From the NCBI GenBank assembly GCA_948567375.1, contig OX419755.1, positions 64,112,944-64,176,943 of the forward strand: a stretch of DNA of 64,000 nt. The letters are read 5' to 3'. The DNA is from Lunularia cruciata (taxonomy: Eukaryota; Streptophyta; Marchantiopsida; Lunulariales; Lunulariaceae). The position numbers were made by a program, and so were the translations under genes. The notes beneath the pieces are model-generated. The model saw nothing but the letters and a program-made list of their open reading frames with translations. It ran no database searches and was not told where the DNA came from. Shown in pieces: positions 30,780 through 54,325 of the stretch. The stretch's first letter is position 1. The number at the start of each line of letters is the position of its first letter.

Positions 30780-32800
30780 TTGAGGCAAAGGCAATTTGAT
30801 ATAAACTATTGTCAAACTCTTGTAATAAAAATATTTCAACAATAATAAAAGAAGCATCAAAATCAATTACAACATACCCTTTTGAATCATATGATTATAT
30901 TAGATGAGATAATAAAAAGTCTTGAATTATTGAAAAGTAACCTTCTCTTTATAGTCCCATTAGTATTTGACATCCTTGTTTACAAAACTAATTAATGATG
31001 TCATGACACTTATAATAATGTATGAACCATTAATACAAGCTTATAATTGTATCCTTGATTTCTAACATCCTCTAGAATTGGTCAATCCATAATAGTCTTG
31101 ATCTTTACTCCTTTACTTGATCTTGATATTGATTTCCTTAGCTAAACCCCTATGACCTAAGAAGGTAATCTATTCTTTATAGTACTTTTATTTTGGTTTC
31201 TTATAGAACAATTACACTTGTGTAAGCATTCCAAAACTTTGCTGTATAAGTATAATCCTTTTAGTTCTTGTCTTGATAGAGATATTATCATCTAAAATAC
31301 CAAAAAATATAATTCAAAAATTTTATTATTTGATTGACATGTCTTATCCATCAGATTTATGAGGAACATTAGTGACATCCAAATAAAAGTTCAGCTACTC
31401 AAAGTATTCATCCATATCTTGAACAAAAAGGTATCTTTGATACATGCTTTAGTGAGATAGTTATTTGGAAATACCTCTACAAAAATCTAACTTGATGAAG
31501 TATTTAACTATATTAAATAATAAGGACAATCTATTTGAGGCAAGAAAGAAGTCTAATAAATATATCATAATAGAGAAAATATATTTTAGATAATATTCAG
31601 AAGTAATAACTTTAAGTGAGGCATCTAGAAATAAATTTGCAAACTCTATATGATCTTATCTCTTACTTTTGAATTTAGTATTTTAATAATAGCTAATCAA
31701 TTCTTTTGTCAATTTGAACCAAACTACAAATCCTATATATTTCTTCTTTTGTAGCTACTATGTATTCAATACACTAGTATTAAAATGAAATTTTTACTTA
31801 CTAAATATACCTATATTACCAAAAACCAAAGCATTCTTATATCACTTACCAACATTATTAAACACTTATTGAAAATTAATTAGGATCACAAAATTGAGAG
31901 CTACTCATCTACTTAATGATTCAAGAAGTTTTGTTATGCCTTCTCTATGTTGATGTTGATGGTACTGAAAATTATTCATAATCAAACAAAAAAATTCCAT
32001 TTCAGTTATATTATCTTCACATCAAGTAGTTTTTACTTTGGAAAATAGATGAAGATTCACTTTTGTAAAAAGTACTATATATTCTTCTTTGTGAGATGGG
32101 GCATACACTTCTTACTTTTGAGATAGATGATCGATTTGTTGTTGCTTTGTTTGGATTAGTAACATACTTTATTATATTTGATATTTTCTATTATTACCAA
32201 AGTAATGAAATTTTACTTCTAAATCAAAATATAAATAGCACATATAATCCCTGATCATAAATTATGATGAAATTATGAAATGTTCAATATGTGACAAAAT
32301 GACCAAAAAACACTAACCCAAATGAAAACTATAATTAATTATCATATGAATACTAAAATCCTAAAAATGTATAGGTAAAATCTAAAGAGGACCATATATT
32401 CTATCTCTTTGATTTATTCTTTAATACTATGATAAGAATGCAAGAAAACAAGAAAAGAAGATTAGGATAAAAGAGATAGAAAATGAATTGAATGAAGTGC
32501 TTTTATGTTAAAGCATTTAAGTTTAAAATAAGCTCTTTTCTTGCAAATTGAGCTATTAACTTCCTAACCAAGTTACTTCTTAATCAATTATGTATTGCAC
32601 ATTTTACTCAATCCTTAAGAAGCTTCTTCTATACCTCACTATCCAAGTCTATTAGAACTTTCTCAATTACTTTCTTGCCTACTCAATCTAGAAAGCTTCC
32701 TAAGTATCTTCTAAGAACTTTTTTCTAATACTTAATTTGTAATTGTATGAGTATCTTGTAGCAACTACTTGTAACTTGCTTGAAAATCTTCACCTAATTA
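30780..32800 (-). mobile_element. Worn, AT-shifted copy of Element II
   Basis: It is colinear by eye with 3830-7200. Shared phrases include GAAGCATCAAAATCAA (30853 and 3902), GTCTTGATCTTxxCTCxTTxxxTTGAT, ATGACCxAAGAAGGTAA, GATATxATCATCTAA, and GATTTGTTGTTGC near the gag start (32130 and 6502). The part at 32480-32800 matches the LTR with AAGAAGCTTCTT and CTAGAAAGCTTCC remnants of the HSE-like array. Nearly all differences I could see are C to T or G to A. No open frame survives. Confidence 0.7.
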
Positions 32801-35289
32801 TTATTATATAGCTATAACATTATATGGTAGAAGATGATATGATATTATGTTATGTTTTATTTAACCTATTTTGGCAATGCAATTTATCTGAATAGTTTGG
32901 TAGTAGTTTTCATTCAATAATAAAAATTATCAAAATAATTATTAATGATATTTAATTAATGATTTTTTATACTAACAGATTATTTGAACTAACAGATTTA
33001 ACTAACAGATTATTTGAAACATACTATCATATTAGAACTGTGTGCAATACTAGAGTACCTAGACAGAAATAAGATACATACCTCTCAAACTGAAAAGGTA
33101 CTTTGAAATACCTTACACTTAATACAAGCTAGATATCCATTTAAGGACTTTTAGTTTTTTCTTTCTATTCTGAATTTTATATTGCTTATAAATGGTTGTT
33201 GGTTATTGTAAGTGATTTTGATTTTGATATAATTAAAGTATTAGTTAATGATATTGATATGATTACAGATGCAATTTTTAATTAGTTTGCCAAGGAATAA
33301 AACTCTTACAAAATTCAACTATAAACTTATTATAAGTTGTTCTAAATTATTATTATGATATATTGGAAAATCACCTATAATATACTACAAATTAAATTAT
33401 TTTTTGGAGATTCTTGTGATTATTCACTAACAACTTTCTTTGCTTATTTTGGGAGATTTTGATGAACAAAGTAAAGAACCATTGATTATAGTTATTTGGA
33501 TTCTTCTTAAGAATGATGTGTGATCCTTTCTCGTGGAAAATTAAAACCTCCTAAAGACTCCTAGTAAGTCTTCTAAAGTGATCAATCATAATCATACTAA
33601 CTATTTTAGTTGGAGTGTTTAATGATGTGTTGGTGAGTTGATCAAGTTTGCTTAGATTGTAATGATAACATTGTAAAAATCTTACATTCTATATTAATTC
33701 TAGCTCAATGTACTATTTCCCTTTAGAGCTACCTTTTCAAGAAAATACGTTTCAATTCTTTCATGCCCACAAATGCTACAAAGGGGAACTTCACTAAAGT
33801 CAGGGTTTTTCTAGCATCAAAGAGTAGAGAGATATGTGTTTTATACCTTTAATGAAATAATGAGATTTCATAATATGGTTAAAATTATAAGAACTAGGAG
33901 ATCCTATACTAGTATTGTAGATTTAAACCAGATATCATGATGCTTGATTTTACCTCTCACTAACAAGTTCTAATATTTATAAGGCCATCTCTATTTACTA
34001 AAAAAATTAATTATATATATGGTATATTCAATTTTCATTGAATATACCCTAGCAGTGAAAAATTGATTTATCTTTTCTTATTTATATACAACCGAGAGAG
34101 CCATGTTAACCAAACAAAACCAAGAAGAAAAAGAAAAAGAGAAAATAATTAATATGTGATAGAAAATATAAATGTTTCTACAAAGATGAAAGAGAAACAT
34201 ATGGATTGGAAATGCACTTTTAAGAAATTAAATCTTTATTTTATGCTACTTAAAGTATAATTATATTTGGCAAGAGCATTAGTACTCTTTTCCTAACATT
34301 TGAACTTATGAAATCTAATATTTCACTATAAGAAAATAAAAGATAAAAATTAAACTTAATTCTCTCATTTGAGCAAATGTGAATCAAGTATTCCAATTGA
34401 ATGTGATATACCTTGTTGATCCACCACCTCTTTCAACTTATTAAAAATATTCTTTGCTCTTCTATATTGGATTACCGACTCAATTTAAGAAAAAACTAAT
34501 TCCTAAATGGTTTTATAATATATTATTTTAGTTCTAAACATTCTAGTTTTTTCTATTTTGATATTTACAAACCTTAATATTAAATAAATAAATAAATAAC
34601 ATTTGTAGTAATATCTTTACATGATAGATAGATATATAGATAAAAGTAATTGAGAATATCTTTTCATAATTTATATATCAAAAATATACCTGCTACAACT
34701 TACATAATTAGGAATATTTATAAAGTAAAGGATAACTAAGTGTATCTTTTCTTTCCATGTTCTATTATAGAGATGGTTTATTTACATGAGCATAAGATGT
34801 CCTTCTATCTTTTACCTTCTGATTGTACTAAAGGTCTATAGTCTTCCTTGATGGATCAACAATTTTAGCATGTATTAGATTCTCTCTTTGTTTACTCATC
34901 CATTCGGTGTGCTACTAGGACACATCTTTGCTTTGGCCCTAACAAGGATGCAAGCTCTTAAATCTTAGCTCTATTGTGTATTAAGGCATTCTAACTTGCA
35001 CTAGCTACTTTCTCTAGAACAATGACGTTCTACTTTGATTTGGTCCACCTATCTATATCTTCATTACTCACTTGTCAGTGTGGTTCTACACTAGATGCAG
35101 CAAGGGTCCATATAACACAATGTCCTTTTGGAGGATAGAGGATAGATACCTTTGATACCATTAATGATATAGTATTTGCTATGGCACAAGAGGTAGAAAC
35201 TTCACTTAGAAGGAGTGTTGGTATGCTTTGCAAACAACATGAATCAAGGCAAACTTATTTTTGGTCCAAGATGATAAAGTGATAACAAT
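32801..35289. other. AT-rich repeat-like DNA, no gene recognised
   Basis: No frame of note. Composition matches the flanking worn elements. The last 500 bp (34780-35289) becomes less AT-rich and may already belong to the LINE-like element that is recognisable from 35290. Confidence 0.35.
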
Positions 35290-35835
35290 AGATGTTGTGG
35301 TTATGGATCCCACACGTGACAATTTCAAAGGGAGTGATATTACTCATCCTCTTGAATGTGTAGCAAGCAAAGCAATAATAGGCAAGGACTCCTAGTATAA
35401 GAGCATGTAGCAAGGTTACCTCTTTGTTCCTCTAGCATTGGATTTATATGGATGTGGCATTTGACAAATTCATTACGAAGTACAAAAGAGCTTCTCTACT
35501 AGACATCAAGGAATGCAACTCTCACTTTAATACTTCAATATGTACTTTAGGTAACATTTATCTATTTCTCTACAAAGAGCATTGATTGGTGCAATCTATG
35601 TAAGAGCAAACACACTATGTGATGCTTTTTTGGATGCTCTAGTAATATGTAGACCATACTATTGACATTGTTTAGATATGTTAGGCGTAGTAGGACAAAT
35701 TCCTCATATTGATACTATTGAGGCTTAGCCCCATGTTACATATGATGTATTTTCTTTGTATGGCTTGATAGGTTGTTATACTACCAATTTAGCTTTACAT
35801 TTTTAGTAAATGTATTAATTTTCTGCAATTTTTTA
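35290..35835 (+). mobile_element. LINE ORF2 C-terminus and tail (worn)
   Basis: Readable pieces are HPLECVASKAIIGKD (about 35338), LFVPLALDLYGCG (about 35430), SISLQRALIGAIYVRANTL (about 35562) and VICRPYY (about 35644). It ends at the same stop as the copy at 10580-10925, followed by CCCCATGTTAC (35729). FVPLALDxYG followed by SxxLQRA is a pattern of LINE ORF2 C-termini in plants and algae. Stops and frame changes make it a fossil. Confidence 0.5.
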
Positions 35836-37199
35836 GTGAATTGGTGATCTTATAACTATTGCAATGTAAATTTGATGAGATTTGACTTTCTCTAAGATTA
35901 TCTATTAGAAAGATAAAGATAACTCAATACATTAGATTTGACAATAGTAACATTATTCATAAATCTAAAGCATAGTTAAGTATTTAACAAGGTTCTACCT
36001 TTTTTGGCATTGTCATAAAATAATTAGTTAGATTTTGCAAGGTCTTGAGGAGTCATCCTATGAAAATTTCTTTAAAATGTGGCAATATTTTCAACAATTT
36101 TTTTCAATGGGTATTAATTTCATACATGTTATGGTGAATAGCCTTTGCTTTACTTGAGAAAACAATAATTTTCAATACAAAGTAATAGTGAAGGTTGGGA
36201 ACAAAAATAGACAAATGTTGTTAAATATTAAACAAATACCTCACAAAGTAAGGAAGACAAGACAAAGTCCAAACAAGTTCTTGCAATAGAAGCATTAATC
36301 TCTCATACAATGAATAAAACCTCATTCAAGTGGTACAAAGATTGGGAGTTCATATTATGATTGATTGATTATATTGTGATCTACTAGACCGTTGTTATTA
36401 CAAACATCAAAAAGATGCACATAGTCTTAGGAAATATAAAGATGATGAAATTTATGCTATTAAATTTTTTTCTATTATGAAGTTCCACCATCAACCAATG
36501 TGACACCAATTTTCATGTACTTTGCATGAAGGCGCCATCAAAGGATGGACTTTTGACCATTTGGTGCCAAGTGACATGCATTTGGGATGCAATTGAAACC
36601 TTAAACCAACCATCATGATGGCCAAAGGATAGACCAAATTGATAGAAGTATAAAATGGTATTCCCACCCTACAAGAAAGAACTTTTATTTTTTCACTTTT
36701 CACTTTCTCAACGTTTGGTCACATAGGAGTTTGTCTCTATTCCTGAAGTGACTTGTTTTTGTTGGCAAAGTGCTAAAACTTGTGAGTTTGTGTGAGGTGT
36801 TGTTCTTAGGTAGGGTAATTTCACATGCTATTGTGAAAAAAACAAGTATAGACACAATGCCTAAGGAGAAAGGCAAGAGGAAATAATAAGAACTCCTCAA
36901 GATCACTAGCAAATTGCTTGAAATTTTTGAGTTGGACCTATATTGAAAATTTGATTACCTAAGAAGTAGAAATATAAAATTCATGCTACGAGATTGGAGT
37001 CTATCAAACATATCCATACTAGGAGAAATCCCTAGTCATACCCATATGAGTGAAAAAACCTGAGAGATAATCTTGTCTTGCAGACAAAAGACCACTGGCC
37101 CTGAGTGCTTGCCTGTTGGCCAAATATAGATAGATAATCCACATGGACATCCAAGTAAGAGTCTCAAAGCCATAATAGAAGCCTCATTTATTGATGTGA
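35836..37199. other. AT-rich, unassigned
   Basis: No gene recognised. 36480-36720 is less AT-rich and has a TATA-like GTATAAAATGG near 36648, possibly part of an unidentified LTR. The minus frame at 37281-37036 was not identified with confidence. Confidence 0.35.
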
Positions 37200-37390
37200 A
37201 ATCAACAAACATATACCAACAAGTACTTGGAGAGAGCCTATGCAAGGCATATACTCGTATGAGATGATTGAATAGTTTCACTCAAGGAATTACTATTGCC
37301 CAAGCACTCCAATTTTGGTATGGGATCTTGGACAAGGAGTTGCAATGTAGAGTACATGATGCTAGGTTGTTATAGGCTACCTCACCTACT

Positions 37391-38062
37391 TTGGTGGTAG
37401 TTGTTGGTTTGGCTAAGCGCATTGAGCTCAACATGATGGAGGAGAAAGTGGTGACATCTAGTAGGGAGACCTCATCCACAATTGCTACTTCTTCTAGAGT
37501 GCAACAAAGTGCACCACATTGTGTTGGCTTCCAAGGGCAAAGTGGACAACCTAGATCTTATGGCACAAGTGGAGGGCCTAATGAAACTAGACCCTTACCT
37601 TCATTTTTAGGTCAATAGTAGCCAATGAGTGGTGGTGTTGCTTGTTGGACTTGTGGTGGACCTCATCAAAAGAAAGAGCGCACTCAAGGTAGTAAACATG
37701 ATACCTCTGGTGCATCATAGCCAACACAAAGATAGTGTGACCATGCTGTAGATTTGGTCACACTAATGATTGGTGCTTTGACCTTTATCCAAAGTTATAA
37801 AGTGGTAGGGTTGCTATGGCACGTAGTAAAGGAGCTCCAAGTCATGTTTGACAAGGTGGTAGAGGATAGAACCATAGCTACTCAGATTGAGAAATTGAAG
37901 CAAAGATTGGCTAGCATGGCAATAACTCAAAGCAGATCAGATTTGGGTGCTAAGGCTTCCACCTCTTATGTTGGTGATAAAGATATCTTAGACTTTATGT
38001 GTGGAGTAGCACAGGTAGATGCATCTACCGCAATGACTTGGAGTGCAATACATGCTCTATAG
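37391..38062 (+). pseudogene. Gag fragment of DMT copy B
   Basis: Two frames (37391-37618 and 37754-38062) match gag of copy C. The second contains IEKLKQRLASMAITQ and DILDFMCGVAQVDASTAMT, the counterpart of minus 44547-44311. The CCHC knuckle between them is broken by stops. Confidence 0.75.
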
Positions 38063-38159
38063 CCTAGAGGAGTATCAGTGGAGTTGGATCCATATAGAGG
38101 GGAGGTTGGTAGATAGGTCAAACTTGCCTAGTCTTTCACTCTCTTTGAAGCAATATAGA

Positions 38160-38900
38160 TGTAATACCAATAACTAGATATATTATCTAGAGGTGAAAAT
38201 TGGTAAAATTTGGAAGGATGTTAAGTATGATAGGCTAGGTAGATCAGATAGAGGTGTCACCAAAGATCACTTCTAATAATAGAGCAAGAGCAAAAAAAAC
38301 CTAAAGATATAATACCAATAGCTAGACATATTATCTAAATGTGAAAATTGGCTTGGTAACATTTGGAAGGATTTTATAGATAATGGACCAAGTAGATCAC
38401 ATAGAGGTATCACCAAGAGAGTACTTCCACTAATAGTGCAAGAGCTAAAAATAATCTAAAACTTCAAAGCCAATTTTGGAGGCCTAAACGGATGAATTAG
38501 ACTTAAAAAATGTGTACATTCCTTTCCCACATAAGGAGAGGCTAGCCTGGCCTGCCCTTGTTTGTCTCATTGAGAACTTTACAATGGTACCTCACCCATG
38601 TAATTCTGAGATTCCTACATGAAGATTCTATAAAGATTCCCTTTGATCAAAGCTTGTTTGACCAACCAAGTAGGACTAGAATAGATATGTCATTTGTAAA
38701 GACAACTAATCTAAGGGTAGAGCTCGTTGCCAAATCACCTATCTATTTATATGATCAAAGGGTGGATCTTCCTTTGAGGGAATCCTCTTTGTTATATAAT
38801 AAAGGCAAGGTGCTCCTTTGAGGCATTGGAGTATTGAATGTGAAGCTTGTGTTTCTTCTCTTGTGTTTCTCTTAAGGTCTCTTATCCTTGGAAGATTACA
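38160..38900 (+). repeat. Solo LTR (Element I family), TSD ATAGA
   Basis: Starts TGTAATACCAATAAC and ends GATTACA. The target duplication ATAGA is perfect at 38155-38159 and 38901-38905. The unfilled site in copy C is at about 44276-44300 on the minus strand. TATATAATAAA lies near 38794. Confidence 0.93.
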
Positions 38901-39289
38901 ATAGATGACATCCATAGCTTGTAGACATCCTAGTTCAAGTGTAGTAGATGGTGATGGACTAAATGCTAGTCAACTACATGTTACTACATAGATTGAGTCT
39001 AGCATGATGTTGGGGGTGGCTTAGTTGATTATGCACTTCCCTTTGTTCTCAACCAATGACATGTTTACATTGGAAGTTGATCCAACTCCAGTTTTTTTGT
39101 TTGCTACCACACTTTGTGAGAGTAAGGATGATGTGGTTGATAGTGGATCTAACTTGGTTGAGGAGCATGGGATATGTTCAACAACCAATGATTTATAGCA
39201 AGCAATGGTAGCTAAGATGGAGGAGTTACCAACTAGACCTGCCTTTGAGCAAGCTTAGTTCATACTTGGACCTGTCCTATTGGATAACC

Positions 39290-39488
39290 AAAGGGGGATT
39301 TTCCATTTGGTGGAACCTTTAGGGAAGGTCTATATGCCATAGAGGGTCTTATTAGACTCTAGTACGTAGCCCCTTATATTGGGAAAAGCTACAATTATTG
39401 GTCTTGAGTTACAAAAGATTGATATGAAGAGGTGTCCATTTCAGATCCATACATCTCTAGGAGGTGGTTCTATATAGTACATCACAAA
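39290..39488 (+). pseudogene. Protease fragment of DMT copy B
   Basis: The frame RVLLDSSTxPLILGKAT near 39350 is the aspartic protease active-site region; copy C reads MLDSGVQLLMLGKAAL at the same place. Stops flank it. It is cut off at the copy C junction. Confidence 0.7.
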
Positions 39489-39990
39489 CAATGATCAATC
39501 AAAGCCTTGTCACACAAGACTTGAAACTCTCCCAAGAACTTTGTACCCTGATCAGTCAAAACCTCAGTTGGTGCACCAAAATGACTAAGAATTCAATCTA
39601 GGAATGAGTAAGCTATCCCTTCACTAGACTTGTCAGGAAGTGCCACCAACTCAACCACTTGGAGAAGTGCTCCACCATCACCAAAACATACCAATGATGT
39701 CTCACAATCAACGGTAAAGGTCCAGTGAAGTCCAAACTCCAACGGTAACCCAATCCCATGATAGGTAATGGGTGTAACTATGGCATAGGAGCATTGAATG
39801 ATGCTCTTACTTGGTCACAAACCACACATCTGGCAACAAACTGCTGTACCTCGGTCTACATACCGCGCCACCAATAATGACTCTAGAGTAAGCTATATGT
39901 ACACTTTACTCCAAAATGTCCTAGCTCCTCATGAGCATGATGGACCAACTGTGGTCTCTGTGCTGGAAGTGGTACTACTCGCACTCTACC
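39489..39990 (-). pseudogene. Integrase of DMT copy C (truncated)
   Basis: Minus-strand reading gives the zinc-binding area near 39920-39850 and the core. SLDF (first Asp) lies near 39745; VLVMVEHFSKWVELVALPDK near 39680 and VLTDQGTKFLGEFQVLCD near 39550 carry the second Asp. The catalytic Glu would lie beyond the break at 39489. Stops and frame changes are present. Confidence 0.78.
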
Positions 39991-41470
39991 ATCCTCCCAT
40001 ACATGCAAAAGGTGTCTGCACTCCAATCTAAACTGTTTGGCTCATTGAAAAAATGGTCTCTCTCCTTGGCCCCAATTGTGCCACCCACAACACTAGTGCA
40101 AAGATAGTCCATCACTAAGACATCATCATGAATGTCTTGCTGAATTGTACTAATATCTCCACTCTCTGGATTTGTGACCTCAATAACTCCTCCTATATGC
40201 GTTGAGAGAGATACTACCAAAGCCTCTAAAAATATACACAGAAAGGCCGATGCATGCCAACTTGGCACCATCTCCTCATCTGTCTCACCATGCCAATGTG
40301 CTCCGGTCTGATCTTGCTGGCTGGGACATGGGTTTCTACTCAACCCATCTGCATCACGGTTCACCACTCCAAGTCTATGAACAACCGTGAAATCATACTC
40401 TTGTAAAATCAGAGCCCATCATACAAGCTTCCCTGAAAGCTTGTCGGACTCCATCAACCACTTTAGTGGCTGATGATCAGTGGTGAGAGTGCAGAGGTTA
40501 CTAAATAGGTAACATGAAATGTGCTATTGCCCAAACTGCTGCCAAGCACTCTCCTTCATATGAACTATACTTTGCCTCCATTGAATTGTTGGAGTGACTA
40601 GCATAGGCCACCATAAACTCCTTCCCCTCATCATCATGCTGAGTGAGCACCGCTCCAAGCCCCAACATACTCCAATCAGTATGAACCTGAAATGGTCGTC
40701 CTCTAATTGGTTTACTCAAAATAGGAGCACATGTCAACCTCTCCTTGAGCTCTACAAAAGCTCTCTCCTGCTCATCTCCCCAACACCACTCTTGTGTAAG
40801 CTTGGTCAGCTTTGTCAAGGCCTTGGCAATGGCACTAAATCCTCTAACATAGCGGTGATAGAAGTTTGCCAACCCAAGGAATGCTTGCACTCTGCTCACA
40901 TCCGTAGGCCGAGGAATATGTGCAATAGCCTCCACCTTGGTTTTTTGAACACCAAGTCCTCCGGAGTAGATAGTGTGATCCAAATACTCAACCTGCTCGT
41001 GGAAGAACCTACACTTCCCAAGATGTAATTTGAGTCCATGAGATCTCAACCTCTCAAACACCTCCAACAACTGTCTCTCATGCTCCTCCACAATAGTGCT
41101 ATAGACCAAAATGTCATCAATATAGCACCAAGCAAAATCCAATCCAGCTAGGATCCTATCCATGACCCTTTGGAACTCAGCCGGAGCGTTCTTCAACCCA
41201 AATGGTAAGAACCTCCATTGATATAACACATCCTTACCGTGAGGATCAATAGCCCAAAATATTGTCTTGGACTTATCCTCCTCCTTGATTGGCAATTGAT
41301 GATATCCCGCTCAAAGATCCAAAGTACTGAAGACCTTTGCACGCCCAATCGCATCAAAAATCTCCTTTGGTGTAGGCATGACATACCGATCAGCCCTGGT
41401 CTATCGGTTGATAGGACGGTAATCTCCACACATCCGCCTATCTGTGTAGTTGCCATGCATATCCTTCTTG
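39975..41470 (-). pseudogene. RT and RNase H of DMT copy C
   Basis: The frame 41295-40501 is open for 264 codons: YHQLPIKEEDKSKTIFWAID overlaps its start, and FLPFGLKNAPAEFQRVMDRI and the RT active site CYIDDILVYS (about 41135-41105) follow. RNase H follows with VHTDWSMLGLGAVLTQ and SYEGECLAAVWAI, ending in NRDADGLSRNP (about 40350). A frame change at 40501 and stops upstream (near 41400) break it. The 393-nt frame 40367-39975 continues into the linker to integrase. Confidence 0.9.
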
Positions 41471-42119
41471 GCTGGCATCATTGTTTGCTGATGCATACTC
41501 TCTATGTGAAATCTCCACCAAACCAGCCTCAAAAAGTCATTACTTTGGCTTTGGATCAATGTCCTCTCCATGTCACTATAACGATAAGGATGTAAAAAAC
41601 TGGTGTATCACTAGTCAGCTCAATCCGTATATCAAGTCCCTTGAGAGCACCCAAATCCTTCATACTGAAGGCAAAACAACTCGTGTGGCTCCTCAAGAAC
41701 CTCCAAACCCTCCGTCTTTCCTCTCCAGTAAGCTTGGGTCCAAGATCTGGCTCCCAAGTATCCTCTGTAACTGTAGTAGGAGTGGAAGACGTACTGACTA
41801 GCTGCTACATTGGGCCCTTGGAGCAATAGTGTCATGCTCCCGACCACTAGAGGTCCCAACCTCTGTGTGAAAAACTCCCTCCACTCTGGCTGCAATCTCT
41901 ACACGTCCTCTAGTTGCATCCTCAATGGACCAAGAGTGTAATCCAAGTAGCACATGCTCACATGGATGGACTCCAAGTAGACCACTCTCCCTAGTAGCTA
42001 CTGGATGTGTCCCAAGAATACCATGTCCACTCAGTCCATTGCCCTCAACATGTGCTTGAATTGTCTCGATAGGCACAGGGCTCACAAGTGTTTGAGTGGT
42101 GATGCCTATCAAGCGCATC
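41471..42119 (-). pseudogene. Linker between methyltransferase and RT, copy C
   Basis: Frames 42148-41798 and 41895-41632 are conserved in copies A (9180-9740) and D (47960-48560), so the segment was coding in the element. A repeated phrase, SGLLGVHPCEHVLLGLHSWS, shows an internal duplication that recurs in copy A. No known domain. Confidence 0.6.
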
Positions 42120-43080
42120 CTACGCTGCTCTGCCAAGCCAATGCTCACAATCTAGGTCAAACACTTTAGGTCCATAGCCTAACCTAACACCTAATGCCTT
42201 GATGCCTCTGACACTACTAGAACAACGGTAATACTGGTGCAAAAACCCATCACATGCTCTCTCTCATCAGCATTGGGCTCCACCAATTGCTGTAATTATG
42301 AGTCCCAAACAAGTCCAGGTCCTCCCTCTTGAAAAGCATGAGAGCTTGGGAAACTCATGAGTGTGGGAAATGCGGCTCTAGGCTGTCCAACTAGGTTCAC
42401 CACTGCCATAAGTGACCTATCAGCCACTACCACTGTCTGAGATTGACGTCCAACATCCAAGATGTCATCCACAAGGATGTGGTTAAGTTGTTGAATCCCA
42501 TCATAAGCACGCTGTAGAACCTCTTTGGGTAAGAGGTTTGTCCACCAAAGACAAAGATGATGAGCCTGTGATTCCACTCTAGCTGCATCTAACAATACAT
42601 CAAGTCCCATCCAATAATGGACCTGATGTGTACTCACCACCACTCTGGTGCAAGAATCACCCATCAAAGGAATGTTCTCCAAAAAGTAAGTTGGAGAAAC
42701 GGACTGATGAACATGGAGATGTTGTAGTATCCGTAACATTTCCCAAAACACACCAAAACAAGGATCCTAAAGACCCAATCCTCTACCAGCACGTGTATGT
42801 TCCTAACATAGCCATCCTGAAATCACCAAGTGAATAGGCCCATGTCTCTCTAGGTCATGCACCCCCAGTAAGGAAATGTCTGCTGGTAGGGCCTTTTGGT
42901 AACCTCTGACTGTTGACATTGGTAAAAACTCGGGATATTGATAGGCCAAGTGTGCCACATGATGTAGAGAGACTTGCCTAGTAGTCTCATCTCTCTACAT
43001 ACAAGTACCTCTGTACTTGTATACCCGCTTGTAACACCGCAGCTAGTCCGGTGATAATCCTACCAAACAACTCCAATAGA
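42120..43080 (-). pseudogene. DNMT3-like cytosine-5 methyltransferase, DMT copy C
   Basis: A single minus-strand frame of about 320 codons without frameshift. Motif I: LLELFGRIITGLAAVLQAGI (43079). YLYVERDE follows. Motif IV: GPIHLVISGWLC, with Cys at 42808-42806 and Leu in place of Pro (CCA to CTA; copy A has Pro). Motif VI: YFLENIP (about 42685-42668). Motif VIII: SQAHHLCLWWTNLLP (about 42570-42525), close in shape to SAAHRARYFWGNLP of DNMT3. Motif IX/X area: FQEGGPGLVWD and MGFCT (about 42250), then AMDLKCLT. Stops include TAG 42805-42803 and TAG 42769-42767. The enzyme would transfer a methyl group from SAM to cytosine. This is part of the element, between protease (43850-43473) and RT, not a host gene. 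Confidence 0.82.
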
Positions 43081-43850
43081 CATATCCCCTCTACTGGATT
43101 CTGCCAAGCAATGAGTGTGGTATCCAGAGGTGTCAAAGAAATTGCCTCTGGAAGCTCATCCTCACACTCATCTCCTGATGGTACGAAGGCTCCACTCCAA
43201 GCCTATTGCACCAATTGATCTGCATGTTGCTGCAACGCCTCCTCTGAACTCCACAATGGAACATCCAAGGTGGATGGAACAATCCTACTTGTACTCCAAA
43301 GCCGAGTGATCTCCTCTGGTACTGGAGTATCCTTTGCATGGGCATTCCCCTCCAACAAGTCACCAGGCCAAGTAACTGTACCACTGAAAGCTAAAACTGA
43401 TGCTGCCATGGTCATGGACTGTAGTGAGCCAAGACTACCACTACTAAAGCGTATTGGTAGGTGACATACCCATCACTCACCAGACTGCCAACCTGGTCTA
43501 TAGGAGGATGTCTCCTCCCAATAGTCAATATTGAAACCCATGGTGTATAACATTGCTCCCCCAACTAGCACATCATATGACTCAACTATTGTTGCAATAG
43601 CCTGAGCTCTCACCACCAAGCTATCAGTCGGATGACCAGGCTGAACTTGGACAACAAGCTCCCCATGTGTGATGTATTGTGTCAAACCACCACCTAGAGA
43701 TGTCTGGATCTGAAATGGACACCTCTCCACATCGGTCTTCTGTAACTCCAGACCGACAAGTGCAGCCTTCCCCAACATAAGAAGTTGCACACCAGAGTCT
43801 AACAAGACTCTCTATGGTGTATAGACCTTCCCTGAAGGTCCCACCAAACA
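43081..43850 (-). pseudogene. Aspartic protease and spacer, DMT copy C
   Basis: The frame 43805-43473 opens MLDSGVQLLMLGKAALVGLE, the retroviral-type protease active site (Asp-Ser-Gly), then ITHGELVVQVQPG and VVRAQAIATIVESYDVLVGG. Downstream (43415-43203) lies a spacer with VTWPGDLLEGNAHAKDTPVP before methyltransferase motif I. The active site is intact here, but upstream frames are broken. Confidence 0.8.
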
Positions 43851-45975
43851 AAAAATCCCCCTTTGGTTATCCAATAGGACAACACCAGGTGTGAACCATG
43901 CTCTCTCAAAGGCCGGTCTAGCTGGCAACTCCTCAGTCTAGCCGTTACTACGTGCCATAAACCATTGGTCGCTGAACGGATCCCATGCTCCTCAACCAAG
44001 TTAGCTCTACTATCAACCACCTCTGCCCTAGTAGTAGGAACCGCACCATCCCTACTCTCACACAATGTGGCAACCAACCAGAATACTGGGGTTGGGTCAA
44101 CTCCAATGTAAACATATCACTGGCCAAAAACAAAGGATGTTGCATAATCAACTAAGTTGCCCCCAACATCATGCTAGACTCAGTTTGTGTAGTAGTAGGT
44201 GGCTGACTAGCAGGTATTCCATCATGTACTCTATCACCACCTACCACACCTGCACTGGGACATCTAGGAACCATGGATGTCGTCTGCAATGCCTCAAATA
44301 GCATGAAAGACTAGGGAAGTCTAACCTGTCTCCCAACCTCTCCTCTTTGTGGGTCCAACTCCATTGATGCTCCTCTAGGCTCTGGAGCACGTACTACACT
44401 CCTAGTCACTGCTGTAGATGCATCCACCTGTGCTACTCTGCACATGAAATCCAAAGCATCTCTATCACCAGTATATGAGGTGGAAGCCTCAACACTTGAA
44501 TCTGATCTCCTTTGAGCAATAACCATACTAGCCAATCTCTGCTCCAACTACTCAATCTGAGTAGCCATAGCTGTATCAAAAGTAAGGGTAGGTACTGCAC
44601 TCCTATTAGGTATAGATCCTCTACCACCACCTCATCCTCCATGAATTGGAGCTCCTCTACTGCCTGCCATAGCAGCCCTACCACTTCGTAACTCTGGGTG
44701 TAGGTCAAAACACTGGTCACTAGTGTGACCAAATCTGTGGCAGTGCTCACACTGCCTCTGTGCTGGCTGTGATGCACCCAAGGTATCAGGTCCACTACCT
44801 TGAGTACACTCTCTCCGATGGTGAGGTCCACCACAACAAGCAACACCACCACTCACTGACTGTTGCTGACCCAAAAATGAAAGTAAGGGTCTAACTCCAC
44901 TAGGCCTTCCATTTACTCCATAGGATTTGGGTTGTCCACCCTATCCTCAAAAACCAACTGGGCATGGTTCACTCTACTGCACTCTAGAAGAAGTCACAGC
45001 CGTGGATGAGGTCTCCCTACCAAATCCAGATGTCACCATCCTCTCCTCCACCATATTGTGCTCAATATGCTCAGCCAAACCAAAGACCATTGCCAAAGTA
45101 GGCGAAGTAGCCTATAACAATGTAGCATCACAAACTCTATGTCGCAACTCCTTGTCTAGTATCCCATACCAAAACTAGACTGCCTAGGCCTCAATAACTC
45201 CCTGAGTGAAACTGATCAACCGCCTCATGCAAGTATATGCCTCGTGTAGGCTCTCTCCAGCCTTCCATTGGAACTCTTGCAAGCTCCTTAGCTTGTCAGT
45301 CCGCACTCCCTGGTAGTTCTACCTCAAACACAAGAAGAACTCCACCATGGGGTTAAACTCCGGTACCACACCACTTCTTGTAGCGGTACCTCCACTCGTA
45401 GTAGCACTATCTCCAACTAGTGCACCTCCACTAGCTCCACTAACTCTACTCAAGCTAGAACTCGTAGGTACAGCCGATCTATTCCTGGCCACCGAGCCTG
45501 AAGTGATGGAGACATAGTGTGGAGACCAATACTGTCTCCATAACTCAATCTCCTCCAAATGAGCTCTCCTGAACTCATGGTAGTCATCCATCGGTGGACC
45601 CTCTAGATGCTAAAACAACCCCTTCCATGCCATGAAAGGTGTGAACAAAGTTGGGTTCTGCATCTGCTATAGATCACACCAACTATTGAACTCTTGGATG
45701 AAGTCATCCAACTCAATGGTACCCAATATACTAGAGTAACGCCTAGGGCCTTTGGAGGCTCCATAAATCTTGTCCATGTCCCACAACAACGGTGCGGACA
45801 CACCAAGTGCACTCTCAATTGAATCAGCTCCTGTGTCGAACTCTAACTCAGAGTCAATCTCCTCCCTCACTAGGACCTCAGATACAGGCTGATACCAAGC
45901 ACCACTCATAGTAAACCCACTGCATACTGCAAGGCTAACTCCTCTGGAATCCCCAAAGAACTCTATCGTGACCAA
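43851..45975 (-). pseudogene. Gag of DMT copy C with CCHC knuckle
   Basis: Frame pieces: 45975-45667 (MVTIEFFGDSRGVSLAVCSG to FIQEFNSWCDL), 45591-45319 (MDDYHEFRRAHLEEIELWRQ), 44874-44632 with knuckle CEHCHRFGHTSDQC (CX2CX4HX4C, about 44755-44714), 44547-44311, and 44077-43851 leading to protease. The first piece is also present in copy E (62810-62472). The gag core is less typical than in Elements I and II. Stops (mostly TAG) and frame changes separate the pieces. Confidence 0.8.
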
Positions 45976-47343: not shown

Positions 47344-47795
47344 TGTAATCAGATTGTTTACCACTCTTAACGCAACTCAACTTAGATCAGTACTTGATCT
47401 GTCACTCTATAAACTACCAACAACTGGGCACTGATTATAGTCAAGCCACACCCACTCCAATATAGAGAATCTAGGTGATGCTCGCCGGCCTCTGTCCACC
47501 ATAGCCAAGAACTCAAAGGCTCAACATCAAAGAAGTGAACTCTTTGGAGTTGCATTTCAAAAGTATACCCCCTGGACTCGAGCTAGGTATGAACCCTAAT
47601 GGTCCCGCTGATGGCACACTAGACGGTGCAAACGGTGCAAAGTGACAATAGGCCCTACCGTGAAGTCAGTACTCCAAACATAAAATCTGACTGTCAAAAA
47701 GTAGTCTTTGAGAAACTGTTGAAATAACTCTAACTACTATCACTAGAACTCTAGTGTCCGAGCAATCTAGATGCAACACTACAAATGACGTGACA
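47344..47795 (-). repeat. 5' LTR of DMT copy C
   Basis: Minus-strand ends TGTCACGTC and GATTACA. The same boundaries occur in copy E (63930-63474), which supports them. Length is about 452 bp. Confidence 0.72.
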
Positions 47796-49760
47796 TCCAA
47801 TACCTATGAGAGGGAGGAGGCAATGGGTTTTTGTACCAATATTACCACTATTACAATAGTGTTAGGGGCATCCAAGTATCAAGTGTTAGATTAGGCTATG
47901 GATATGAATTTTTTGACTTGGATTGTGAGCCTTGGATTAGAAGAGCAATATAGGATGTGCTTGATAGGCATTACCACTTGGACACTTGTGAGCTCTATGC
48001 TTGAGATGATTTAGGCACATGTTGGGAGTGATGGACCAAGTGGGTAGGTTATTCTTGGAACAAAACTAGTGGCTACTAGTGAGAGTGGTCAATCTAAGTG
48101 AGAGTGGTCTACTTGGGATACAACTAGAGGACGTCTAGAGCTTGCAACCAAAGTAGAGGGAGTTCTCCAAATTGAGGTTGAGGACTCTAGTGGTTGGGGT
48201 AACGATATTATCACCAAGGGCCTTGTGTAGGAGCAAGTTAGTATTCTTCCACTCCTACATCAATTATAGAGGATACTTGAGAGATTTTGGACCCAAGCTT
48301 ACAAGAGGAGAAAGACAAAGAGTTTGGAGATTCTTGAGTAGCTACATGAGTTGTTTTGCCTTCAATATGAAAGATTAGGGTGTTCTAAAAGGACATGGTA
48401 TTCAAATTGAGCTTACTAATGAGACACTAGTTTTTTTTATGTCCTTACAAATATAGTGATATGGCAAGAGCATTGATTCAGAGCTAGATTAGAGACCTTT
48501 TTGAGGCTAGTTTGGTAGAGATTTCACATGTAGAGTATGCTTTAGCTACAATGATTTGAGCCAAGAAGGATCTGCATGGCAACTACATAAATAGGTAGAT
48601 GTGTGGAGATTACCATCTTATCAATTGATAGACTAGGGCTGATTGGTATGCCATGCCTACATTGGAGGAGATCTTTGATGCAATTGGGCATGCGAAGATC
48701 TTCAATACTTTAGAACTTCAAGTATGATATCATCAATTGTCAATCAAGGAGGAGGACAAGTCCAAGTTAAGATTTTGGGCTAGTGATCCTCATGGAAAGG
48801 ATGTATTATATTAGTGGAGGTTCTTACTATTTGGGTTAAAGAATGTTCTTGCAAACTCTTAGAGAATCATGGACATGATAATATTAGGATTGGATTTTGC
48901 TAAGTGCCATATTGATAACATTTTGGTCTATAATAGTACTATGGAGGAGCATGATAGATATTTGTTGGAGGTGTTTTAGAGGTTGAGATCTCATGGACTC
49001 AAATTGCATCCTTGGAATGTAGGTTCTTCCACAAGTAGGTTGGGTATTTGGGTCACACTATCACACTATCTAGGACTTGATGTTCAACAAACCAAGGTGG
49101 AGGCTTTTGCATGTTTTCTTTGGCCCATGGATGTGAGAAAAATGTGAGCATTCCCTTGGGTTAGAAAAATTCTATCACCAATATGTTAGAGGATTTAGTG
49201 CCATTACCAAGGCCTTTGACAAATCTTACCAAGCTTACATAAGAGTGGTGTTGGAGAGATGAGCAAGAGAGAACTTTTTTAGAGCTCAAGGAGAGGTTGA
49301 TATCTGCCCCTATTCTTAGGAGACCGATCAAAGGATGAACATTCCAAGTTTATACTGATTGCAATTTATTGGAGCTTGGAGCAATGTTCACCCTTCAAGA
49401 TGATGAGGGGAAAGAGTTTGTGGTGGCATATGCTAGTTGATCTAAAAATTCAATTTAGGAAACTATAGTTCATATGAGAGAGAGTGCTTGGCAACAACAT
49501 GGGTAGTAGCACATTTTTGATATTACCTATTTGGTAACCTCTTCATTCTCATCATTGATCATCAATCATTGAAGTAGTTGATGGAGTACAACAAGCTTTC
49601 AAGGAAGCATGCATGATTCACTCTGATTTCATAAGAGTATGATTTCATGGTTATTCACAATCCTAGAGTGGTGAACCATGATGTAGATGGGTTGAGTAGA
49701 AACCCATGTCCCAATAAGTAGGATAAGATCTAAGCATGTTGGCATGGTGAGATAGATGAG
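47796..49760 (+). pseudogene. Methyltransferase tail, linker, RT and RNase H, copy D
   Basis: Motif X (EREEAMGFCT) and the tail AMDMNFLTWIVSLG (about 47890-47930) are clear. RT: EIFDAIGHAKIFNTLELQ (about 48670) and YHQLSIKEEDKSK. The YIDD region near 48905 reads CHIDNILVYNST, with the first catalytic Asp of the pair kept and the second changed to Asn. RNase H: VYTDCNLLELGA (about 49350). It ends near 49700 with a HDVDGLSRNP-like phrase. Many stops. Confidence 0.78.
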
Positions 49761-50129
49761 GAGATGGTGCCAAGTTGGCATGCATCTATCTTTCGATGCA
49801 TGTTTTTTGAGGCCTTGGTGTTATCTCTCTTAGCACATATAGGAGGAGTTATTGATGTCATAGATCAAAAAGAGGGAGATATTGGTATAGGTCAATAAGA
49901 CATTCATGATGATGTCTTAGTGATGGATTATCTTTGATTTGGTGTTATGGGTGGCACAATTGGTGCCAAGGAGAAAGACCATGTTATTCACTAAGACATG
50001 TGGTTTAGATTGGAGTGCAAACACCTTCTTTATGTATGGGAAAATGTTAGAGTGTGAGTATTGCCACTTCCATCTAAGAGACCATAGTTGGTACATCATG
50101 CTCATGGGGAGCTAGGACGTTTTGGTGTA

Positions 50130-52330
50130 AAGCATTATTGTACTTTGCCTTTCTCCATAGTTAAGCACCTTGTGTGAAAAACACAGAAGGTGCTTAACTA
50201 TGGAGCTTATGGATCAAAGATTATATGTAAATCTGTCACTACTAGTTTGAGCATGTGTGTTATCCAACCATCGGGACCCTCCACTCTTGTTTCTAGTATT
50301 CTTTCTATCAGGTAGGGGATTAATGGCAACCTAAATTGTCATCATTACACATACTCTTGGTCTGATGGTCATCACTTTTAGCATTACCAAGGAGAAATTC
50401 ACAATAATCCTAAAAGGAAAGAACCTAATTGCAATGCCCATACACCAATCCAAGCCAATTGAGTATACAAACAAGTATGCAAGTACAAAGAGGACCCATC
50501 CACAAGAACAACACTCCCTACTTTTTGGCAAAAATTAGCTTCATAGCCTTTGCCTTGTCCTCAAGCTGATTTCAATCTATACTCAAAGTTTATTCCAATT
50601 TGTAGTCCAACTTTCAATCCAATCTCTACTCCAAGTGGGGAAATTCTATGCCTTTTTGAATAGGGAAAGATTTATGCAACTTAGATGCAACTAAAATTTT
50701 TGTGTTCCTCTAATTCAAATGATCTAAAATTCAATGAAAATTTTGTGAGATAAGCTTTCCAATGGTATGAAGCAAGCCACAATCTAACCACTATAGTTTC
50801 CTAGAGATCTCAAACTTGACCAATTTTTTTGGGTAGTTTCCACCCTAATTTTGAAATCCCTAATTAAGGGTTTGCTCCTATTTTTGGCAACTTTCCCCAT
50901 ATTTCTGGATGACAAGTACACATAATCCTCACAATTATTCTAACAACCAAAATCTTCAATCACAGTCACAAAAATGGGAGAATTGACATTTAATCATGAT
51001 TGAGAATAGAAATGCTCTATCGAGCTTATGAGAATAGAACTTGTTGCATTAGCTCTCACTTTCCATGAAGCCAAATCCAACTTAATTTTCATAGAAGCTT
51101 GTCATGCCCTTGTTTAAACCCCTACAAAGTTTGATAGTCTAATCCAACTCCAATCCCTAGATATGGATCAATACTTGAGCTAGGCTTAGTTGTGAGCTCT
51201 ATAAACCCAAGTATACTTGATCCAAGACCTTGAATTCTCTATTTTACGAATTCACGTAAGATATTTATATAGAGGTGCAAGACGTGAACACCAACAGTTC
51301 TAGAAATTTTCATAAGCTGATTCAAATCATAACTTGAGGAGTGACCAAAACTCCAAACTTGATCATCATCTCATCTCCAACACCTTACTTTCCAAATCTC
51401 CAATTTCAATCAACCAAATTTGAGTTGAGATCTAAGATTTAAGATCTAAAACTAGATTTCTTGCACTTAATAGTATAAAAACTTTGTCTACTCTCCAACC
51501 CCATTGAAAAATCATGAAAATGTGTTCCAAAGCTCTCTAAATTGTCCAATTTGTGCACCTTAGTATATATTCTACCCCCTTGATTCAATTGATTATCTCT
51601 CCCTAAGTATTTGCTCAATTTTTTTTCTCTCTAAATCATAGCATGTTAGTTCATTTCTCCAACCATAGTCTCCTCTACCTAGTTCCCTCCCCTCTCTCCT
51701 TTTATGGTAAAAAAACTCCAAAATTTTCTTCTTGGGACCCAGTCATTTGTGTTTTTATCATTTAGTTGTTTCTCTTTTTGCCAAATGGACACCATAACTC
51801 CAAATTCAAGCCATTGAACAAGATTAAGTCTTTCTCCATCTATAAGAGCACAAAGATTGTCAAGTCTTCAACTTGTTTATAAGTAAGCATAAGAAGACAA
51901 GTAGATCCAAGGTTCCTGTCATTGACTCCATGAATGCAGCCCCAAATTGCACTACAATCCAACCCGGAAGTTCATCATGGTGTAGAATTTGAAGGGAGTG
52001 GCATTTTGGGAAGATGAGATTTCTCCTACTCAAATACTTCCTCTAATGCTTTAGCTCCCATGCTTTGCTACAACTTTTACTGCCTAGGTCCTCCTCTTTC
52101 TCAAGTCTCCTAAAACTAAAACACACTCCTTACCCTCTACTAGACTCTACCACATATATGCATAAGAGTTCTCAAAGAGGACAAGACCATAATTCCTATG
52201 GCAAAATCATAAACATTTATGTAGATTTCTCATATGGCAATAGCTCAATTGTGGGATATATTTAATAATTGGAGATAAACCAAACTAAATGTTTTTTTCA
52301 CTAGTTATGCAAACCATAAGAAGATAACAT
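50130..52330. mobile_element. 2.2-kb noncoding insertion in copy D integrase
   Basis: Copy C shows the uninterrupted integrase zinc-binding segment (minus 39910-39840). In copy D the matching text stops after TTTGGTGTAAAG (about 50129) and resumes at ATATAGCTTATTCC (about 52335). The inserted DNA has no frame above 66 codons. Near its left end is a perfect hairpin (50153-50205). Its class is unknown; a nonautonomous or solo-LTR insertion is possible. Edges are approximate. Confidence 0.6.
50153..50205. repeat. Perfect 19-bp stem hairpin
   Basis: CTCCATAGTTAAGCACCTT at 50153-50171 is the exact reverse complement of 50187-50205, with a 15-base loop. It lies near the left end of the 2.2-kb insertion. 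Confidence 0.8.
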
Positions 52331-52334
52331 AAAT

Positions 52335-53213
52335 ATAGCTTATTCCAAAATCATTATTTGTGGTAAAATATGCAGACTAATGCATAACAACTTTTTGCTA
52401 GATGGATGGTATGTGATTGAGTTAGAGTATTATTTAATACTCCTATGCCATAGTTACACCCATTACCTATCATGGGACTAGGTTACAATTGGAGTTTGGA
52501 TTTTGTTAGACCTGTACCCTTGACTATGAGTCATCATAGATATGTTTTGGTTATGGTGGAGCACTTCTCCAAATGGATTGAGTTTGTGGCACTTCTTGAC
52601 AAGTCCAATGAAGGTACATCTTACTTGCTCTTAGTCATTTTGTTGCACACGTTGAGGTTTTGATTGATTAAGGTATAGAGTTCTTGGGGGAGTTTCAAGT
52701 CTTGTGTGACAAGACTTTGATTGATCATTATATTATCTTTGAGATCACCTTAAGGCTATGACTTGGCAGAGAGAGTGGTTTAGATGATGAGAGAGTATTG
52801 CATAAGTATGGTTTGTAAAGAGTCCACTTGGGAAATTGGGATCTCTAGTTACCTTAATTGGCCATGGGCTACTGGTTCAGCTAACAAGCCTCCTTAGCAT
52901 CCTTCTCTCCTTACTTTCTACTCTATGGACAAGATCTAGATTTAAATGCAACCATTCATCATGATGCTACTAGAGTTTTGGACTTGGATGATCCAAATGT
53001 ATGGATGAGTGCATGTTCTCAATGGATAGAGATCTTTGGAGAGTGATGTTGATGGCCTTTGATAACTTAGTATTCCTCAACATAAGGATACCTTATGCTA
53101 TGCTACTATTCAAGGAGGAGGCTGTAGACCCTTGATCCATTGATTTCATCCAAGTGACTCTATATATCTATCGTAGACTACATTGACAACACTTGGTGTT
53201 ACTACAAGCTGCA
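52335..53213 (+). pseudogene. Integrase core of DMT copy D
   Basis: WSLDFVRPVPLTMSHHRYVL (from 52487) carries the first catalytic Asp. VLVMVEHFSKWIEFVALLDK follows, then a frame change. A version of VLTDQGxxFLGEFQVLCD lies near 52660-52710 with stops. The C-terminal part to 53213 is read only in short pieces. Confidence 0.78.
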
Positions 53214-53508
53214 CTATCTTGAGGATACATGAGGTTTTGCCTTCTGAAATCCTTGTGTTGGAAGGATGTTATGTTGTTGTTTGGAAGGATCATTTGCATA
53301 ATTTGTGCCATACCACCTCCCCATCATTGATGGCACTATGGACCCAAGCTTAGCACTTTTACATGTTGGCTTGAGGTGTATTTTGTGTGACTTTTTTGGT
53401 GGAGTTGCCACTATGTTAGTGTGTAATAGTTGTTTGAGAGGATGGCATATGACATGTTTGACTCCTCTCCTCACGAAGAGGTTATGTCCTAGATGTACTT
53501 GACTTATA
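53214..53508 (+). pseudogene. PHD-like zinc finger at the end of DMT Pol
   Basis: After a segment with YVVVWKDHLHNLCHT (about 53270), the frame 53305-53502 gives a C4HC3 pattern: CILC, then 11 residues, CNSC, four residues, His, two residues, Cys, nine residues, CPRC. LVCNSCLRGWHMTCL is very close to PHD fingers, which read histone H3 tails. The stretch before the last CxxC is shorter than usual and lacks the conserved Trp, perhaps through a small deletion. It takes the place that the chromodomain has in Element I. A targeting role is inference. Confidence 0.6.
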
Positions 53509-53670
53509 GCTAGTTCACCCTTTTTATGGTATAGATTGCAATAAAGCAACTAATGATGAAGCTCAATAGCACTCTACCTCTTGATCTTTGCCCACCATAT
53601 GGCATATCATATACTTGGAATAGACAACTATTTGGGTTTAGAGGGACCTTACCACTAGCTAGGGAGGAAT

Positions 53671-54218
53671 TGTGGCAGTTTAGAGTTCATGTATGACTTA
53701 TGTGTGAGTTGTGCTTCTATAGTATATGATTTTGACCAAAATATATGTTGTTTAGTGATGTATGTATGCATGACAATTATCATGATATTTGTAGTGCCAA
53801 AGCTAGTTTTTTCAAATATTGGAGTAGTAACGTTGGTAGTCATAGTTATTTTAGTAGCTATTCATGGACTATTTATTGGTGGTAATATTTCATGATATGG
53901 CTATAGATCACATGGTGGGACCCGCTATTACTTGCACCATTGGATGTGCCGTCATTTGTGCCAATAAGGCTAGAGACTTAGGTCAAGCAAAGGGGTATAC
54001 TTTTGAAGTGCAACTCTGTAGAACTCACTTCTTTGAGGTTGAGCCTTTGAGTTCCTATCTATGGTAGACATAGCCCAGTCAGCATCATCTAGAGTCTCTT
54101 AGCTAGAGTAGATATTGCTTGACTGTCATTAGTGCCCAATTGTTGGTAGTTTTTTGAGTGAAGGATCAATTGTAGATCCAAGTTGAGTGTGATTTGAATG
54201 GAAGAATGAATTGATTAT
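53671..54218 (+). repeat. 3' LTR region of DMT copy D
   Basis: A purine-rich AGGGAGGAAT precedes TGTGGCAG at 53671. Similarity to the copy C and E LTRs begins at about 53778 (ATCATGATATTTGTAG) and runs to about 54218. The first 107 bp (53671-53777) are not in those LTRs but recur after the LTR at 54219-54325. The true LTR start is therefore either 53671 or 53778. Confidence 0.55.
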
Positions 54219-54325
54219 TGTGACACTTTAGAGTTCATGTATGACTTATGTGTGAGTTGTGCTTCTATAGTGTATGATGTTGAGAGTGATGGATGTTGTA
54301 TAGCAATGTCTATAGGCATGATAAT
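54219..54325 (+). repeat. Direct repeat of 53671-53777
   Basis: TTTAGAGTTCATGTATGACT and the following GTGAGTTGTGCTTCTATAGT match 53681 onward, 548 bp away. This is either a second truncated LTR in tandem or a duplicated flank. Confidence 0.75.

Follow-up and report, generated by a model that had tools for sequence, protein, structure and literature searches.

A DNMT3-type methyltransferase encoded by a Ty3/gypsy-order retrotransposon with split repeats in Lunularia cruciata

The window analysed here is a stretch of 64,000 nucleotides from Lunularia cruciata (contig OX419755.1 of assembly GCA_948567375.1, forward-strand positions 64,112,944 to 64,176,943), and the locus under study within it is a dead member of a Ty3/gypsy-order retrotransposon family that is high in copy number, was recently active, and codes for a cytosine methyltransferase of the DNMT3 type. 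Four copies of this one family were found in the window by blastn and tblastn with an open genomic copy, designated L009. The element is not a plain long terminal repeat (LTR) element, as it combines split repeats resembling those of DIRS elements with a conserved UAG codon behind the methyltransferase; an element-borne enzyme of this kind ahead of such a stop is rare and poorly understood. The family is a variant of an already known kind, since gypsy elements bearing DNMT3 and DIRS-like repeats were described before for Klebsormidium nitens (KnitGypsy-Dnmt3; PMC5890265, in its accessible part).

The methyltransferase of the copy on which the initial annotation was based, copy B, lies on the minus strand at 42116-43118 and is broken, as determined by tblastn with L009 and frame reading (91% identity over 43118-42990 and 84% over 42994-42116). 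The motifs I, IV, VI, VIII, and X had been described as following one another within a single frame; the order holds, but motif I lies in one frame (43118-42990) and the other four in another (42994-42116), which is interrupted by six stops beginning at 42805, 42769, 42298, 42193, 42181, and 42154, and motif IV is destroyed, with LC-stop in place of PCQ. Three open pieces of this domain gave nothing in Pfam at E≤1 and one open piece gave no match in a PDB search, so that copy B alone does not prove the enzyme family and the identification rests on open genomic copies. These match PF00145 with 28.9 bits (cut-off 22) and have DNMT3A as their best PDB match (3.1e-11), and thus it is the open copies which provide the expected similarity to C5-methyltransferases. 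DNMT3A and DNMT3B were ranked first in profile and fold searches, which together with the Pfam result supports the proposed Ty3/gypsy-order element with a DNMT3-type enzyme; in one ranking search, HaeIII was placed above DRM2. The ranking was made against solved structures only, and within this set it supports a domain closest to DNMT3 rather than to DRM, Dnmt2, or bacterial enzymes. DRM and bacterial enzymes were ruled out as closest kin by the profile and structure searches.

The motifs I, IV, VI, VIII, and X occur in unrearranged order and include the catalytic cysteine. In an alignment of 11 relatives, the catalytic cysteine, EN, and R-x-R are present in every row, down to 32% identity, and the proportion of nonsynonymous differences (pN) between L009 and the distant relative L053 is well below that of synonymous differences (pS). 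Mammalian DNMT3A and DNMT3B share only 19-26% identity with it in structural matches, and neither an ADD nor a PWWP domain was found by Pfam in the first open reading frame (ORF1) of the element.

That the gene is part of the element had been proposed from its recurrence in the window, and this view is borne out by genomic copies. A genome search with a piece of the methyltransferase, in which 150 of 9354 first-look candidates were scored, gave matches for all 150. As such a query favours copies with the domain, the search was repeated with a piece of the reverse transcriptase (RT), and all 150 candidates scored, out of 20273, matched at 97% or more; the totals count first-look candidates, not copies. 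Among 30 loci retrieved by RT (L054-L083), which are the copies nearest to L009 and not a random draw, the methyltransferase lies upstream of RT in 29, the exception being L065, where no such domain was found within the retrieved 1.5 kb. Copies consistently lacking the segment were thus not encountered, and its presence in 29 of the 30 supports the view that the methyltransferase belongs to the element beyond chance. Intact copies, for which the initial annotation had suggested a search, are common in this set: the whole domain is open in 16 of the 30 loci, and all three motif strings (PCQ, ENV, and R-x-R contexts) are kept in 21. One of 20 spread 1.5-kb stretches of the genome matched the element (410 of 30000 bases), a sample too small for an estimate of its genome share.

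In L009, ORF1 comprises 1448 amino acids with gag, in which CCHC knuckles were recognised by eye, protease, and methyltransferase, and it ends in UAG. ORF2 follows in the same frame and comprises 912 amino acids with RT, RNase H, and integrase; the Pfam domains RVT_1, RT_RNaseH, Integrase_H2C2, and rve were assigned in both L009 ORF2 and L053, and the order RT-RNase H-integrase with a gypsy-type RNase H and an rve integrase is that of a Ty3/gypsy Pol. On the sense strand of both L009 frames, CAG occurs at 2.1-2.7 times its expected frequency, and CTG is not enriched. Support for gag and protease also comes from sub-threshold Pfam scores in other copies (Retrotrans_gag, 14.3 bits in L010, below its cut-off; Asp_protease_2, 20.5 bits in L053, below 24.3). 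At its C-terminus, ORF2 carries a PHD finger, which scores 39.9 bits in L053 (cut-off 24); a PHD-like sequence was found by pattern alone in 11 of 12 retrieved Lunularia copies (not L017), in another frame in L014 and without the last cysteine pair in L019. The UAG is present in all 20 loci of a first set (L001-L020) and all 30 picked by RT, that is, in 48 of 48 distinct copies, as two occur in both sets (L009 = L054, L011 = L073). It is followed by a hexamer CAR-YYA, as in tobacco mosaic virus (TMV), in 46 of the 48 (exceptions: L020, gapped, and L067, CAGCCT), and L053, the methyltransferase of which is 52% identical, has UAG CAA TCA at the same place. In the accessible part of the source, CAR YYA after UAG is described as essential to TMV readthrough (PMC2754532). 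The UAG is therefore probably a leaky readthrough stop, and from its position we infer Gag-level production of the methyltransferase.

The ends of the element are built from two repeats, A (about 449 nt) and B (107 nt), in the order A1-coding-B1-A2-B2, which was seen in all five copies first examined and in 11 of 12 overall (not L017). A1 begins with TGTC and B2 ends with GACA, and an exact 4-bp target duplication flanks 9 of the 11 copies for which both ends were read (L010 and L015 deviate; L017 showed no ends). Ends of the TG..CA type with a short target duplication are those of Ty3/gypsy elements; an identical long repeat at both ends is absent, as the 5' end consists of A only and the 3' end of B-A-B. 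Therefore, the element is integrated by its DDE integrase despite the DIRS-like split repeats. DIRS elements possess a tyrosine recombinase; the Lunularia family has an rve integrase instead, and Pfam detected no recombinase in L009 or L053. The B1/A2 joint forms a perfect palindrome, GACAGCTGTC (GACA-GC-TGTC), intact in all but one (L012) of 11 copies. It also occurs in L053, where it is one of several palindromes of at least 10 nt in the region, the weight lying on the 16 identical nucleotides within which it is embedded. Directly behind A1, 14 nt are exactly complementary to positions 257-270 of A (from 248 in L010) in all nine copies tested, a length equalled by none or one of 1000 simple shuffles. 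The same region of L053 has a complementary pair of similar geometry, at 13 nt its longest; pairs of at least 12 nt located over 100 nt apart arose in 3 of 300 dinucleotide shuffles. All 11 copies printed have a run of G in front of B1. Of 30 copies examined, 29 share the same A2-B2 joint; the joint of L014 contains 88 additional nucleotides identical to the sequence behind its own A1, as though an over-long complementary DNA (cDNA) end had become attached there. Within a single copy, A1 and A2 differ at 3-11 of about 449 sites, and no fixed A1-specific variant, which would indicate separate inheritance of the two, was found in 10 copies, so that the insertions are young and the repeats renewed together. 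Together, the palindrome and the self-complementary site for priming suggest that the intermediate is a circle opened internally.

Relatives were collected in three protein searches, which gave 50, 113, and 141 proteins (for the third, 120 were listed); in two of the searches, only those candidates that shared most words were scored. Named sources are the liverworts Marchantia polymorpha, Marchantia paleacea, Riccia sorocarpa, and Calypogeia fissa, the mosses Sphagnum fallax, S. troendelagicum, S. tenellum, and S. jensenii, and the algae Closterium, Monoraphidium, and Cymbomonas, most other relatives being from metagenomes or without an organism name. A retroelement domain order was seen in proteins of M. 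polymorpha, S. fallax, and Closterium, with the order gag-protease-methyltransferase in the first two, and for Riccia, Calypogeia, and the other Sphagnum species, it was the match in the methyltransferase that was seen. Among 144 domain-bearing sequences, the domain precedes RT or follows the protease in 33 (type 1); in the other 111, it follows RT or RNase H or directly precedes the integrase (type 2). Type 2 relatives, which come from metagenomes, Monoraphidium neglectum (P0086), and Cymbomonas tetramitiformis (P0117), share the methyltransferase family, a gypsy-type RT, and, in many cases, a PHD finger after the integrase with the Lunularia element, but differ from it by the order RT-RNase H-methyltransferase-integrase in a single frame. 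In the type 2 protein P0024, a further region resembling, by eye, a second methyltransferase-like domain with a VVTAPP-type motif was noticed behind the PHD finger (residues ~1700-1991), for which Pfam gave no match. L053 itself is a 9285-bp contig (CADCWO010000201.1) with identical ends of 127 nt, filed in a metagenome bin named Synechococcales cyanobacterium; it is likely a plant or algal type 1 element contaminating this bin. None of the 20 stretches in IMG/VR that fit the search pattern was a relative.

A tree had also been suggested by the initial annotation, and one was calculated from the relatives' methyltransferases. In this tree, obtained by a quick method with 91 rows kept of 135 that were long enough, 11 of 13 type 1 rows fall on one side, and P0139 and P0140 on the type 2 side. 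In an RT tree of 45 rows, likewise made by a quick method, with type 2 sampled mostly at random and RTs without a methyltransferase represented by four outgroup rows only, the 34 type 2 rows form one clade (99). A single capture followed by a move to a second place would be the simplest reading, the trees not deciding between this and two captures.

The closest described system, KnitGypsy-Dnmt3, resembles the Lunularia element by a gypsy-type Pol with a DNMT3 domain, DIRS-like repeats, and purifying selection on the domain. According to the accessible part of that report, however, its domain is located in the Pol ORF rather than in a gag-protease ORF before a conserved UAG, and TG..CA ends, target duplications, a palindrome, or a priming site are not mentioned there; the words "PHD" and "readthrough" are absent from its main text (PMC5890265). 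No Klebsormidium protein is named among the listed relatives, and the comparison is by description. SymbioDIRS-Dnmt3 of Symbiodinium, as described in the same part of that report, is likewise a DNMT3-bearing retrotransposon with split repeats (A-coding-B-A-B), but has a tyrosine recombinase (PMC5890265), whereas in the Lunularia element the integrase is of the DDE type and both RT and RNase H are gypsy-type. The self-priming gypsy elements Tf1 and sushi also possess a priming site complementary to their own RNA; the Tf1 site pairs with the extreme 5' end of the RNA and that of the Lunularia element with positions 257-270 of A, and the available portion of that description mentions neither a methyltransferase nor split repeats (PMC7175516). 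Titles and abstracts, the full texts lying mostly outside the search, contained no report of DNMT3-bearing gypsy elements from liverworts or Sphagnum; earlier reports of split-repeat or self-priming gypsy elements are possible.

From these features a mechanism can be proposed, which we hold to be slightly favoured as a whole, comprising UAG-controlled dosage, self-priming, a circle, cDNA methylation, and PHD-steered insertion. With most ribosomes stopping at the UAG, the methyltransferase would be about as abundant as Gag and would be taken up into the particle, RT and integrase being provided by the minority reading through. The site adjoining A1 would serve for self-priming of reverse transcription, the plus strand would start at the G-run before B1, and the resulting linear DNA would bear B-A at either end; the two ends would join into a circle, which the integrase would open at the palindrome GACA-GC-TGTC. 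Priming behind A1, plus-strand start before B1, joining, and opening at the palindrome would together yield exactly the integrated order A-coding-B-A-B. The methyltransferase would methylate the cDNA before integration, mainly at CG, so that new copies might carry the same marks as the silent copies already present and not be recognised as foreign; the integrase's PHD finger would steer insertion through histone H3. A more specific version is offered tentatively, and we rather doubt that all of it applies: a DDE integrase would cut circular cDNA at the internal palindrome GACAGCTGTC, a DNMT3 made at Gag level and packed by means of the leaky UAG would methylate the circle before integration, and the design would be old in green plants, with a sister clade bearing the methyltransferase at a second place in Pol.

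Several observations weigh against this mechanism. In copy B, the longest complement behind A1 measures 8 nt, a decayed priming match. The exact A2-B2 joint is cleaner than would be expected of host end-joining. KnitGypsy-Dnmt3 showed no activity in yeast, a result deemed inconclusive by its authors in the part of the report available (PMC5890265). Loss of C from old copies is about as great at CHG as at CG, an indication of host enzymes, and a special depletion of CG by self-methylation was not detected in the observed/expected CpG ratios of young copies. With regard to the role initially proposed, modification of the element's own copies or of host chromatin, these ratios (0.41-0.51) single nothing out, as they lie between those of a random genome sample (0.55) and of pieces of one other gypsy element (0.12 and 0.16); the ratio of the whole window is 0.40 and that of L053 0.73-0.84.

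The strongest competitor, which we consider a substantial possibility though short of even, is that the split repeats arise without a circle, either because the RNA's B1-A2 junction serves as template for both ends, in a DIRS-like scheme, or because linear copies arranged in tandem are integrated. The constancy of the A2-B2 joint is what a templated joint would give, and a DIRS-like repeat structure is reported, in the accessible text, for KnitGypsy-Dnmt3 (PMC5890265); the insert in L014, in turn, looks like two joined cDNA ends, but a template switch could also have made it.

Unlikely, in our view, is a second alternative with the same anatomy, in which the enzyme would hold the element's inserted copies silent or slow and so spare the host, an idea raised in the discussion of PMC5890265. 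Heavy mutation of old copies at CG and CHG, suggesting long methylation, agrees with it. In copy B, transitions at C/G affect 23.0% of CG (34/148), 19.3% of CHG (57/295), and 3.8% of CHH sites (40/1058), compared with 1.3% at A/T (21/1576), and the order of rates is the same in copies A, D, and E. Such decay at CG and CHG is what methylation of resident copies leaves, and it fits maintenance methylation by the host, a CG/CHG pattern in plants pointing to MET1- and CMT-type enzymes. Host enzymes thus account for this pattern, and the many near-identical copies recovered with the RT piece are unlike restraint.

Methylation of RNA, either of the element or of tRNA, instead of DNA is less probable still; an enzyme produced together with Gag would be packaged along with the genomic RNA, and RNA methylation has been suggested for the DNMTs of SymbioLINE (PMC5890265). 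A captured, functionless fragment of a host DNMT3, kept because the burst is recent, is very improbable: many scored copies do have stops within the 156-residue piece and in 14 of the 30 loci retrieved by RT no fully open domain is present, but the invariant catalytic residues of the 11 aligned relatives, the low pN relative to pS, and the related proteins in liverworts, Sphagnum, and Closterium speak against it.

Within the window, copy B extends on the minus strand from A1 at 47795 to 39488, its 3' end being gone, and its body is 90.6% identical to L009. Its terminal repeat A1 (47346-47795; blastn, 87.6% to the A repeat) begins with TGTC and is followed by the gag region (45022-45771; tblastn, 86% to L009) and the protease region (43479-43928; 89%), both assigned by position. 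The methyltransferase indeed lies, as initially annotated, between protease (43928-43479) and RT (41598-40966) on the same strand, according to tblastn with L009. Between methyltransferase and RT, the UAG is found by sequence reading at 41805-41807, followed by CAG CTA in the CAR-YYA context. RT (40966-41598; tblastn) is supported by an open piece at 40504-41310 (Pfam RVT_1, 1e-22) and followed by RNase H (40368-40785; tblastn; RT_RNaseH_2, 1.3e-27) and an integrase (39491-40008; tblastn and blastn) cut off at 39488. Copy A (7240-10223, plus strand) shows by tblastn the same arrangement, with the methyltransferase at 7379-8301 and 9057-9152 and RT from 9635; an LTR-like repeat sits inside it at 8306-9032. 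Copy C/D, also on the plus strand, consists of a 5' part with gag and protease (37230-39486; tblastn and blastn) and a 3' part (47797-53702) with the methyltransferase tail (47790-47957), which had likewise been noted and was recovered by tblastn, RT from 48434, RNase H, and an integrase in two pieces (50028-50147 and 52334-52986). Its split 3' end (53669-54321) comprises B1 (53669-53775), remnants of A2, and B2 (54217-54321). Copy B appears to be nested in this older copy (37230-39486 and 47797-54321), because the ends of both abut. Copy E (60977-63930, minus strand) is truncated and retains A1 (63930-63501) and gag. Five LTR-like units of about 700 nt (2527-3253, 8306-9032, 29568-30272, 38200-38872, and 61174-61890), with inner repeats 149-156 nt apart in most and one unit inside the copy A methyltransferase, are probably solo LTRs of another family. 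Two further gypsy-type RT pieces, at 8-1915 (plus strand) and 4567-3599 (minus strand), are not of this family (about 40% identity) and served as outgroup rows. The region 28000-36000 is A+T-rich (26-33% GC) in surroundings of mostly 35-48% GC.

It is puzzling that a retrotransposon should carry the very enzyme by which it is silenced; such elements have been published for dinoflagellates and a charophyte. A 2019 opinion paper, in its accessible part, places methylase-bearing transposons in green algae and charophytes and states that land plants such as tracheophytes lack them (PMC6338049), and the available part of another report ascribes the genome size of L. cruciata to Ty3/Gypsy bursts, the word "methyltransferase" being absent there (PMC9985172). 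In L. cruciata, a methyltransferase-bearing family is numerous and young, and bryophytes evidently do have methylase-bearing transposons. The ends of the element suggest an unusual route of integration, and the conserved UAG predicts the amount of enzyme relative to RT. Since Marchantia is a genetic model, the purpose of the enzyme becomes testable.
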